64,000 nucleotides of DNA, from NCBI GenBank assembly GCA_905480545.1, contig CAJQQR010000026.1:1-64000 (forward strand), given 5' to 3'. Within the stretch, counting starts at the first letter, position 1; each line of letters begins with the position of its first letter. Source of the stretch: an uncultured Pirellulaceae bacterium. GTDB taxonomy: Bacteria > Planctomycetota > Planctomycetia > Pirellulales > Pirellulaceae. Shown here one piece after another: positions 39,181-63,157 of the stretch. The position numbers and the translations under genes were made by a program. The notes below the pieces were generated by a model, which saw only the letters and a list, made by a program, of their open reading frames with translations, did no database searches and was not told the DNA's origin.

Positions 39181-40443
39181 CTAGGTCAAATTTCCATCTT
39201 CATCGAACGGCAAGTTTGTCGGTTCCGTCAAAATTTTTAAATCATCACGCTGCTTTGCTGATTCATAGAAGTATTCTGAACAATACAACTCAGTAATGTG
39301 CAGCGTATTTTTGATCCACATTACCTTGGCCGACGTCGCGTCGCAGAACCCAACTGTGTTCAAAGCTTGATCGATGATTTCCTTGTCGGTCGCAAAATCA
39401 ATCGGCGACATCGCCGCAGTAACGTGCCCAGCAGTCAAGCAATTGATCCTCGTTGTTTCGACATTCATCGCTTCAAGCGCAGTGGTACGACAAAACTCCG
39501 CCATCCCGATTCCGGTTGCATTCCCGTGTGTCGCCTCAGTTAAACCGCGGACTGCAATCCGTTTGATTTTGGGGAATTCATGATCGGCCGGAAAATGATC
39601 ATAATACTTTCTGCCGATAATATTTGTGTCCATTCCAGCTCCACTGATCTCTTTGCCAATTTCATCAATGATCAACAAATCAGCCTGGTCAAACGGAAGT
39701 TTCGGCATTTGCGCCGTTGCCAATTCCAAGAGCTCTTCTTCTCGAGATTCGATCTTATCAGGAGCGACCATTTCGATGTGCGAAGTTTCTTCAAACGCAT
39801 TTTCAACAATCCCAATTCCGCACAAGATATTGCATTTATCGATCACCTCGCGAGCTACACTGCGGACAATAGTATCAAACGTGTAGTCCTTGATTGCCTT
39901 GTGATAAACTTTCGCACCTTCATGCTTGCCCAACCCGATTAGCATCATTTTCATCAGGCCACTTTGAATCGGACCAGTGAAATCGGTATGCGGTTTAATC
40001 CTTCCACAAACAATCACATAGTCAGCTTGAGATGCCTCCTTATCAAAGTGGACGGGAAAACCTTCATTGGCTTGGCAAACAGTAATTGTTTCCATTGAAG
40101 ATCTAATTTCGCATTGGCAAAAGTCTTCGGTAATTCCGTAATTCTTAAGCACAGCGGTCTGCCCATCAGCGGTTCCACCACCGTGACTTCCCATGGCCGG
40201 AACGATGAACGGAATGCCATTCAACTTCTTCACATTGCTAGCAATCGCCTTGATTATTTTCGCGATGTTGGAAATACCACGACTACCGGCAGAAATCGCA
40301 ACCGATTTCCCAGCGAGGTCAGGGAGGTAATTTCCATTGGAAAATTCACGATCAATTGCCGCGACGGCGTCATCTTCACGCGAATCATCGAATTGCTGGC
40401 GGATTTTAAAAATTTTCAGCTCGTCCGAAATGGGATCAATCAT
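39181..40443 (-). CDS. Second LarA-related (DUF2088) protein
   Basis: A 420-residue protein related to the LarA nickel-pincer family but distant from the one at 20418-21686. The core shows AMGSHGGGT (likely first His), DYVIVCGRIKPHTDFTGPIQSGLMKMMLIGLGKH (likely second His and the lysine), and GKEISGAGMDTNIIGRKYY later. This pattern defines a group of DUF2088 proteins annotated only as lactate racemase domain. Substrate and whether it carries the nickel cofactor are unknown. It stands alone between the FG-GAP and glycosyltransferase genes and is convergent with the former. Confidence 0.75.
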   Translation of the reverse strand: MIDPISDELKIFKIRQQFDDSREDDAVAAIDREFSNGNYLPDLAGKSVAISAGSRGISNIAKIIKAIASNVKKLNGIPFIVPAMGSHGGGTADGQTAVLKNYGITEDFCQCEIRSSMETITVCQANEGFPVHFDKEASQADYVIVCGRIKPHTDFTGPIQSGLMKMMLIGLGKHEGAKVYHKAIKDYTFDTIVRSVAREVIDKCNILCGIGIVENAFEETSHIEMVAPDKIESREEELLELATAQMPKLPFDQADLLIIDEIGKEISGAGMDTNIIGRKYYDHFPADHEFPKIKRIAVRGLTEATHGNATGIGMAEFCRTTALEAMNVETTRINCLTAGHVTAAMSPIDFATDKEIIDQALNTVGFCDATSAKVMWIKNTLHITELYCSEYFYESAKQRDDLKILTEPTNLPFDEDGNLT

Positions 40444-40638
40444 TGTCGTTTTTCTAATCGTTATCTTTTACCGTGTTGTTCTGATTTCAAGTTCAACTTG
40501 TGCTGCGAAATCCCTATTTCCACTGATTCAATGGACTCGGACTTACCGATTCTAATTTCAGAGTTGGTCGGAATCGAACCCCGATCGATCTCTTGATTCC
40601 AATTTCATGGTCAACCAAGTCGTGGATTTATCGTTCTC

Positions 40639-41616
40639 ATGCCACAACTTTCGATAGTCATTCCATTCACAGATGATACAGAGCGATTTGAATCGACTCT
40701 CGTTTCTGTTTTGGAGAATCGCCCCGCCAGTTGCGAAATCATTGTAACTCATGCAGGAAACTACTCCGACCCATACAATCTTGCGAGCGAAGTTCACTTC
40801 GTTGAAATCGCGGATAATACGTCGTCTCAAAAGGCGCGAGGGTCAAGCACAGATCGCCTTGGCGCCCATTTAGCGGCCGCGGTTGAGCGAGCATCATCGC
40901 CGATTCTGCATTTGCTTGGTTGTGGTGTAAAAGTCAATCACGGTTGGTGTGACAATATTGCAGAAGATTTTGACGATCCATGCATTGGCTCTGTCTGCCC
41001 GATCATCAAAGATGACAAGGAAAACGTTCTTTGCGTTGGCATCGAAAACACACTCTTCTACAAAAATCGTTTTGTCGGAGCAGGGAAATTTGCCGCAGAG
41101 ATCGACGCAGAGTATCAGAACCCGATCGGTCCCCATCAGGTTGCTGGTTTTTATAGTGTTGAAGCAATCAGCCAAGTCGATTGCTTGCAAGATTTTGGCG
41201 AAACCAGTTTTGGTCTGGAATTGGCACTAACCCTTGAGGCGATTGGTTTCGAAACCAAGGTCAATACGTCCGCAAAAATCTCTGCAGATGATGGATTTAA
41301 CTTCGACGCAGTGAGCGGAAACGATTCCCAGTCTGCGATTTGGCGATTTGCAGGATCCCTTGGTTTCATTCAGGGATTCATGCTGGCATGCGGAGCAATC
41401 GTTAAGGATTTGATCACAACGCCATTTTCTTCCAAATCCCGGGCGTCGCTTCTTGGCCGACTCTCAAAATTCGTTTCATGGCATGACGCAGTTTCGTTCC
41501 GCGACTTCGCCGATCAAGCACCTGGCCCTCAATCCAATCGAATCAGCTTCCAAGATGCCCAAAAGGAACTCCCCTTGAGCGGCATGGACTACTCATCGGA
41601 GAGACGAGCGGCTTAA
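40639..41616 (+). CDS. Family 2 glycosyltransferase-like protein
   Basis: A 325-residue protein. The first 100 residues follow a GT-A fold: LSIVIPFTDDTERFESTLVSVLENR, then EIIVTH, then an Ala-rich segment ending in SPILHLLGCGVKV, where GT2 enzymes have the metal-binding D-x-D. Here that triad is absent (LGCGVKV), so the enzyme may be inactive or use another ligand. The middle has a PHQVAGFYSV segment like acceptor loops of GT2. C-terminal residues are hydrophobic and basic. No other cell-surface sugar genes adjoin. Family membership is likely, activity uncertain. Confidence 0.65.
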   Translation: MPQLSIVIPFTDDTERFESTLVSVLENRPASCEIIVTHAGNYSDPYNLASEVHFVEIADNTSSQKARGSSTDRLGAHLAAAVERASSPILHLLGCGVKVNHGWCDNIAEDFDDPCIGSVCPIIKDDKENVLCVGIENTLFYKNRFVGAGKFAAEIDAEYQNPIGPHQVAGFYSVEAISQVDCLQDFGETSFGLELALTLEAIGFETKVNTSAKISADDGFNFDAVSGNDSQSAIWRFAGSLGFIQGFMLACGAIVKDLITTPFSSKSRASLLGRLSKFVSWHDAVSFRDFADQAPGPQSNRISFQDAQKELPLSGMDYSSERRAA

Positions 41617-61523: not shown

Positions 61524-62690
61524 TCAATTTTTCAGGTAGCCATCCAACCAACCGCGAGATGCCTGTGGCGGAATGGGGTCAGCAACATCTTTGCCGTCAG
61601 CCAAAGTAAATGATATACCGAGCGGAAACTTTCCCTTGGGGGCATTCTTCGTGTACGTGCCTTCACCGAAAAACTTACCCAAAGCGATCACGTCAAATCG
61701 GGTGATCATTCCATCCGATGTTTTCACATATCCGTAGAAGTCACAATCAAAAGTCCGTGAACCATCACGTGTAGAGAGCGATGCGTTGCCGGTGAGCTTT
61801 CCGTTTTCAAGTTTCATGTTGATGCTCTTGATTTCATCATCGCGCCACATAGGCGGTTCACCTCGCGTGTTATCGACCAAATGAAATCGGGCGATGCGCC
61901 GTTGCACTTTTGCCGGTATAACACCGTTGACGATCGACTCGTGCTCCTTATTTGTCAGCCAAAGATTATCTCGTGAAAGCGAGGATTGAAAAATCTTTTG
62001 CCACTTGTTGTCAGTGGGTTCGTACCCATCAAGAACTCGGGCTTGCACGCGAACCACCAAGCCACCTTTGGGAAGAACTGGATGATAACGGCGATCTATT
62101 TTTTCTGGCTTAATCGAATCAACATTCGTCGGTTTGAATTTTGCCAGCGACTCCGCAATGAACTTCTTGATCCGCTCGGGACTTCGATGGTTGGTGTATC
62201 CCAGGTACTTTCCGTCAGGCGTCGCGATATAGAGCCCTTGGGTCGTTCCACCATTCGATCCGTCACCACGAGGACTATCCTTCGCAATTCCTCGATAAAA
62301 ATCTCCCTCTGTGTCTTTTTGACGCCGTTGATACGCTTGATCGATCGCAACCGATACAAATTTTGTTTGTAGTGTTTTGATGATTTCGGCATCTGCGAAT
62401 GTCGACTCACGGTCGAGCACTCCGTTATTTCACGTACAACCAAGCGGGTGACCGTCCATTGCCCAAATAAAAATTGGCTTCTGTGATTTTGCTGCACTGT
62501 TCTGTGCGTTCAGCAACGAAATCTCCCATGGAATCTGACGCCAAGGTTCATCGGCGGAAGTTTGCAAGGATTGATGAAGCTGCTGAAACTTCTCTTCGTT
62601 CAATTCATCCGTCGCATTGGCAGATTGAACCACGATTGCGACAACGAAAAAAAACCAAACAGGACGATAAAAACTGAGTCGATGTTGCAT
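61524..62690 (-). CDS. Thioredoxin-like selenoprotein with C-x-U motif
   Basis: A 388-residue exported protein, if the single in-frame TGA (62430-62432) is read as selenocysteine. The frame continues without shift on both sides. From the ATG at 62690 a signal peptide (to about SANA, residue 25) is followed by a thioredoxin-like segment: KPIFIWAMDGHPLGCT, Sec87, NNGVLDRESTFADAEI, then FVSVAIDQ. The strand, turn and helix order matches thioredoxin folds, with Cys85-Thr-Sec87 where CxxC normally lies. A SECIS-like hairpin follows the TGA. Residues about 170-388 are a second, beta-rich domain I do not recognise. Upstream ATGs at 62705 and 62714 are possible. A rhodanese gene ends 50 bases before. 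Normal reading would give only a 94-residue or shorter fragment. Confidence 0.85.
62397..62422 (-). promoter_or_regulatory. Bacterial SECIS-like hairpin for selenocysteine insertion
   Basis: Read on the minus strand, seven bases after the TGA comes GAGTG (62422-62418), a bulged C (62417), TCGAC (62416-62412), the loop CGTGA (62411-62407), then GTCGA and CATTC down to 62397. All ten positions pair (one G-U). The apical loop starts 19 bases after the TGA and has G as second base. Known bacterial SECIS elements show a G in the first two loop bases and similar distance. Confidence 0.82.
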
Positions 62691-62740
62691 CTCAAAACTA
62701 TCCATTAAAAACATGGGTTATAGGGTGTGGACAACCAATC

Positions 62741-63157
62741 TTAATTGTCTTTCTTCGATTGTTTCGATTCCGCTTTTTCGAAACCATTTTTGACCAACTC
62801 ATCAAAACCTGCTTTGATCGGTCGCACATCATAGCCAAGGGATTTCAGTTTTTTCGCAGCTTTCAAAGCACGCATGCCAGCCTTGCAGTGACAATAAACG
62901 ATTAATTCATCATTCGGCAATGCATCAATTTTCTTACGGGGTGACGCGAAACGAAGCTTACTCCAGGAAACGAGTTTCGCGTCCTTTAGGTGCCCAGCAT
63001 CCCATTCTTTCTTTTCGCGGACATCCACAAGAACAGCCTTTTTCATTTTCATGTTTTTCTGAATTTGCTCGAAGGTGTCCTCCGTATGTTTTAGATCGTC
63101 ATTGGATATGACTGGTTGCAATAAAACGGAGAGCAGTAAAGTTGAAATCGTGAACAT
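62741..63157 (-). CDS. Secreted single-domain rhodanese
   Basis: A 138-residue exported protein. A short signal sequence (about 1-18) precedes a rhodanese domain: VLVDVREKKEWDAGHLKDAKLVSW, then the active-site loop with catalytic Cys in CKAGMR, preceded by another Cys (YCHCKAGMRA), and LKSLGYDVRPIKAGFDEL. Rhodaneses carry sulfur, and some carry selenium, as a persulfide on this cysteine. The tail is Lys-rich. It is 50 bases upstream of the selenoprotein on the same strand and is probably co-transcribed. The functional link is inference. Confidence 0.88.
   Translation of the reverse strand: MFTISTLLLSVLLQPVISNDDLKHTEDTFEQIQKNMKMKKAVLVDVREKKEWDAGHLKDAKLVSWSKLRFASPRKKIDALPNDELIVYCHCKAGMRALKAAKKLKSLGYDVRPIKAGFDELVKNGFEKAESKQSKKDN

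Follow-up and report, generated by a model that had tools for sequence, protein, structure and literature searches.

The single in-frame TGA of a minus-strand gene in an uncultured Pirellulaceae bacterium appears to specify selenocysteine, and we consider it very likely (probability of about 0.88) that the product is an exported selenoprotein in which UGA is decoded through a hairpin with the loop CGUGA, Sec95 and Cys93 carry out thioredoxin-type redox chemistry and a C-terminal domain provides recognition, a reading inferred from sequence comparison and a predicted fold. The window, i.e. the whole stretch of DNA analyzed, comprises 64,000 nucleotides, and within it the minus-strand frame 62714–61524 (396 codons) is open throughout save for this TGA at 62432–62430. 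A sequence-only reading had singled out the split frame, with a Cys two residues upstream of the TGA and a hairpin starting seven bases 3' of it, and all of these elements are present. The residues flanking the TGA are GHPLGCT-U-NNGVLDRESTF, with Sec95 encoded at 62430–62432 (minus strand) and Cys93, which in the C-x-U motif is probably the resolving residue, at 62436–62438 (minus strand). The expectation that automatic callers would cut the gene also held, as standard gene calling returns two ORFs, 62430–62714 and 61524–62420.

The gene is best placed at 61524–62690 (minus strand, stop TGA 61526–61524), the frame itself being open from 62714; ATG 62690 is the better start codon because it yields both a signal peptide and a length matching that of the relatives. 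The putative signal peptide (MQHRLSFYRPVWFFFVVAIVVQSANA, 62613–62690, minus strand) has clear n, h and c regions and an inferred cleavage site ANA|T, all read from the window protein by eye without a predictor, and hydrophobic N-termini are also found in homologs. Export, as proposed earlier, is inferred from this N-terminal sequence and is supported to that extent. Upstream and in the same direction lies a single-domain, exported-looking rhodanese (62741–63157, minus strand), an adjacency seen only in this genus. We rejected an operon argument based on this gene or on the downstream PPIase, since neither neighbor is conserved past the genus. Only one other TGA-split frame of comparable size occurs in the window, at 40594 (plus strand), with parts 40114–40596 and 40639–41616 (both plus strand); as a selenoprotein it was ruled out, its first part being largely antisense to the gene 39181–40443.

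The conservation of the TGA was assessed across 163 homologous domains from Planctomycetota and Verrucomicrobiota, which represent all loci collected and include some genes fetched twice; deduplication left 121 distinct TGA members. The codon at the Sec column is TGA in 150 of the 163 domains, and neither TAA nor TAG occurs there in any of them; the remainder consists of six Ser, one Asp, one Pro, one remote Cys and four gaps. A protein search found homologs in 25 of 117 related genomes, with the TGA kept down to about 25% identity, and a profile search of the phylum gave matches in 160 of 392 sampled genomes when looser remote matches are included. When 84,980 species were scanned with a single genome each, 133 relatives came up, those with names being mostly Planctomycetota and Verrucomicrobiota. 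No relatives were found among the phages, plasmids and viral contigs searched. The frame 3' of the TGA shows no sign of the decay that would have spoken against the gene, retaining 41–67% identity across genera. The C-x-U motif proved typical but not obligatory: Cys stands at position -2 in 109 of the 121 members, other upstream positions (-1, -3, -4 or -5) carry it in nine, and three have no upstream Cys. When homologs were inspected for Cys or TGA, nearly all had TGA, and Cys at the Sec column was absent from the core family, occurring only among remote thioredoxin-like relatives.

The Ser replacements in six homologs imply that some members can dispense with Sec. In L165–L170 and L201, Ser takes the place of Sec and the upstream Cys is lost too (e.g. 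GHPLGSTSKAG), making these natural loss-of-Sec variants. A further locus, L041 (G061:C102), retains only an N-terminal part of a family gene, lacks the Sec region and is probably a decayed copy.

The hairpin 3' of the TGA had been described as a ten-pair stem, and only its inner half withstood comparison. Numbered from the T of the TGA, positions 17–21 pair with 27–31 around the loop 22–26, and the outer pairs join 11–15 with 32–36; in the window this corresponds to an apical hairpin at 62402–62416 (minus strand; 5-bp helix 62416–62412 with 62406–62402, loop CGUGA 62411–62407) within an extended hairpin at 62397–62422 (minus strand). Across 94 distinct sequences, 98.9% of the inner-helix cells are paired, compensatory changes on both sides are found at four of the five inner pairs (e.g. 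C-G to G-C and C-G to T-A), and sliding the partner strand by 1–3 bases lowers the inner pairing to 9–40%. The outer five pairs form in the window sequence, but at 67% paired they do not exceed slid controls, and we rejected them as a conserved stem. Nearly all sequences have CGUGA or CGUGC as the loop, and the Arg codon within it is CGT in 99 of the 121 members, whatever their hairpin class, against a background of 19% of Arg codons and against 7 of 99 and 18 of 97 at two other invariant Arg columns. A set in which the codon was CGT in 102 of 102 sequences had been chosen by that codon and is not counted as evidence.

This hairpin, which we term class A, fits the published bSECIS rule of a G in the first two loop positions, a spacing of 16–37 nucleotides and an upper stem of 4–16 bp (PMC13188914), in that the loop CGUGA lies 18 nucleotides past the TGA on a 5-bp helix with covariation support. 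By itself a hairpin of this kind is weak evidence, because 7% of all TGA triplets in the window have a minimal SECIS-like hairpin after them and the fold energy here is unremarkable (the single-sequence fold is no better than shuffles, z = -0.9, and was not used). It is the conserved TGA column, the compensatory changes in the inner helix and the constrained loop codon that place the split beyond chance. An Rfam search of the region gave no match, as is to be expected given that bacterial SECIS elements do not form one family. Around 20 members carry a different hairpin, in many cases CCAG(A/G)C...GTCTGG, which encodes a Val-Trp pair; this second class includes L149, L152, L154–L163, L175 and L176, and the Val-Trp pair is present in many of their proteins, a coincidence which suggests that the RNA element has shaped the protein sequence.

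The genome, which is 88% complete, contains the Sec machinery whose absence would have told against the reading: a tRNA-Sec with anticodon TCA and profile matches to SelB (379 bits), SelA (584 bits) and SelD (266 bits, within a 737-residue ORF). The search of this genome used families and profiles and did not extend to the complete selenoproteome. Among the 117 relatives, SelA is above cut-off in 23 of the 25 family genomes versus 49 of the 92 others (Fisher p = 3.5e-4, uncorrected for kinship), and both family genomes without SelA above cut-off have tRNA-Sec. At seven Rhodopirellula/Rubripirellula-type loci, the clustering places the gene as the convergent neighbor of an oxidoreductase-SelD fusion; model matches at the linked loci confirm SelD for L094 and L108, with SelA also confirmed for L094, and in one further genome SelA lies about 3 kb from the family gene. 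The gene neighborhood is not conserved outside one clade, and so does not indicate partners or substrate.

An AlphaFold2 model built with 71 sequences (pLDDT 88.7, pTM 0.86) predicts a thioredoxin-like domain at residues 54–195 (62130–62555, minus strand), which bears out the earlier assignment: in a VIA search, residues 54–195 match the DsbD-type C-terminal domain 3f9u with Z = 13.0 (r.m.s.d. 2.8, 118 residues aligned), followed by AGR3 (12.5), ERp19 (11.9) and DsbH (10.7), with rank 50 at Z = 6.1. A thioredoxin fold is thus predicted for the N-terminal half of the mature protein, and in the model Sec95 immediately precedes helix 96–103, the first helix to follow the active-site strand. Residues 205–396 (61527–62102, minus strand) form a beta-rich C-terminal domain with a conserved RFHLVDNTRGEPPMW motif and no clear known fold. 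Folded alone, this domain gave a best VIA Z of 6.3, which is at background level, and therefore no fold is assigned, although this does not prove a new one; it has no Pfam hit, and a PDB sequence search with the family profile returned only a chance match. Every match to the C-terminal domain in the 117 relatives lies inside a family gene, 3' of the TGA-bearing domain, and in those genomes it was never found without that thioredoxin-like domain upstream.

These data bear directly on other explanations of the TGA. The simplest would take it as an ordinary stop separating two genes in one frame, a short exported peptide and an ORF starting at GTG 62420, which are exactly the two ORFs that automatic calling returns. 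We find this scarcely credible, as 150 homologous domains hold both halves in frame around TGA and never around another stop, the division would fall within the fold at the N-terminus of a thioredoxin helix, the C-terminal domain never stands alone in 117 genomes, and the covariation 3' of the TGA acts at the RNA level. Nor do we attach any but the slightest weight to readthrough that inserts Trp or another near-cognate amino acid, or to TGA being a sense codon here. The frame would indeed be open under such a code, yet tRNA-Sec, SelA, SelB and SelD are all present, TGA still terminates this gene and others, and the position is that of the thioredoxin active-site nucleophile, occupied by Cys in remote relatives.

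Two further possibilities accept Sec. Membership of a described selenoprotein family, of the VPGUxxT or Trx7/PDZ type, seems improbable: some members give weak profile matches over the thioredoxin domain (best E values 0.0006 and 0.0025), which amount to 13–18 bits among the matches listed where the curated cut-offs stand at 275 and 300, the motif and downstream domain differ, and neither model picks up the window protein even at E = 1. An unlikely explanation, though one deserving more consideration, is that Sec is not engaged in thioredoxin-type redox chemistry and instead binds a metal or a selenium or sulfur species, or that the family stores or senses selenium. Such a role would suit the shifted or absent partner Cys of 12 of 121 members, the rhodanese gene immediately upstream in this genus and the unknown kind of the C-terminal domain; the thioredoxin fold, the classical nucleophile position of Sec and the Cys at -2 in the other 109 members speak for redox chemistry, as does the observation that many uncharacterized selenoproteins have thiol oxidoreductases as homologs and are presumed to act in redox chemistry (PMC13188914).

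On the preferred reading, of an exported thioredoxin-like selenoprotein, we hold with high confidence that UGA 62432–62430 is decoded as Sec, a conclusion drawn from sequence in the absence of selenium or protein-level data, and the hairpin with apical loop CGUGA would specify this decoding. Judging from its position in the fold, Sec95 would attack an oxidized substrate (a disulfide, a peroxide or similar), and on the same grounds Cys93 may resolve it as a Cys-x-Sec selenenylsulfide, which a periplasmic thiol/disulfide relay is inferred to re-reduce. Because Cys93 is not universal, the resolving step may differ between members or call for an external thiol. The family-specific C-terminal domain may bind the substrate or a partner, and its strict linkage to the thioredoxin-like domain makes it a reasonable candidate for recognition.

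Beyond the core family, remote relatives align Cys with Sec forms, as in QVCLGGRATRG versus ECULGGRILRG and LSCANSR versus LCUTNAR, and because of these Cys forms the absence of Cys homologs can be claimed for the core family alone. Several of these relatives, L187 (1129–1980, minus strand), L211, L188 (685–1704, minus strand) and L192 (1291–2349, plus strand), are TGA-containing thioredoxin-like proteins with the motifs ECULGGRILRG and (L)CUTNAR or TUTNAA, and L185, L186, L193 and L203 hold Cys counterparts. In the proteins of this group that were scanned, no NCBIfam model attains its cut-off, and they are probably further uncatalogued selenoprotein subfamilies. In addition, L037, L038, L039 and L040 are planctomycete paralogs with adjacent Cys and Sec (RCU), and L037, L038 and L040 have a GC-rich version of the family hairpin (GCCGCC-CGTGA-GG).

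We think it probable that the core proteins form a large uncatalogued planctomycete and verrucomicrobial family that has essentially always Sec and never Cys, with Ser where Sec is lost, that has been missed by Cys/Sec pairing, and that belongs to a wider thioredoxin-like superfamily of GCTU, RCU, CULGGR and CUTNA types. Discovery of bacterial selenoproteins leans on pairing a TGA with a Cys homolog, and even a common Sec protein can escape it; the absence of core Cys forms fits the statement made for deep-Sep that selenoproteins without Cys homologs may be filtered out (PMC12013277). The family presents a case in which Cys does not seem able to take the place of Sec, and natural Ser variants exist for comparison. 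Public annotation has probably split its genes into two, and at least one genome record that is complete, CP036526.1 (strain K23_9), contains the family.

The view that the protein is undescribed holds against the resources consulted. In the members that were scored, every NCBIfam 20.0 and Pfam model stays below its cut-off, the whole alignment gives weak matches only, and no such family appears among the 119 prokaryotic ones listed in a May 2026 review of selenoproteins (PMC13188914). The family is thus absent from NCBIfam 20.0, Pfam and that catalogue; an earlier listing is not excluded, as only open-access literature was covered, without NCBI nr. A 2016 planctomycete genome paper lists Rhodopirellula selenoprotein candidates in its supplement (PMC4807772), and an earlier mention there is not excluded.

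Comparison with known systems underlines both kinship and difference. The VPGUxxT family thioredoxin-like (seleno)proteins (NF041383/NF041382) share a thioredoxin-like domain with Sec and weak similarity to some members, whereas the present family has the motif GCTUNNG and another C-terminal domain; NF041383 scores only 13–18 bits among the matches listed (cut-off 275) and leaves the window protein unmatched. The Trx7/PDZ selenoprotein NF041199 resembles it in a Thioredoxin_7-like domain with a Cys preceding Sec but has a CxxU motif and a PDZ domain, and two distant paralogs reach 13–17 bits against its cut-off of 300. The closest curated domain models, PF03190 (Thioredox_DsbH, DUF255) and PF13899 (Thioredoxin_7), have the same helix-start active site and thioredoxin fold but CxxC active sites, and the PF03190 score of 16.5 bits is below the gathering cut-off of 27. 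DsbH, the DsbD C-terminal domain, AGR3 and ERp19 (TXNDC12) are similar in the predicted fold of residues 54–195 (VIA Z 10.7–13.0) and differ in having 10–17% identity, no Sec and no such C-terminal domain. The Brachyspira selenoprotein Sec.1 (PF13192; PMC5330540) is likewise a thioredoxin-like protein with a CxU motif, but it is a small Thioredoxin_3 protein with Sec in an N-terminal extension, and Cys homologs of it exist.
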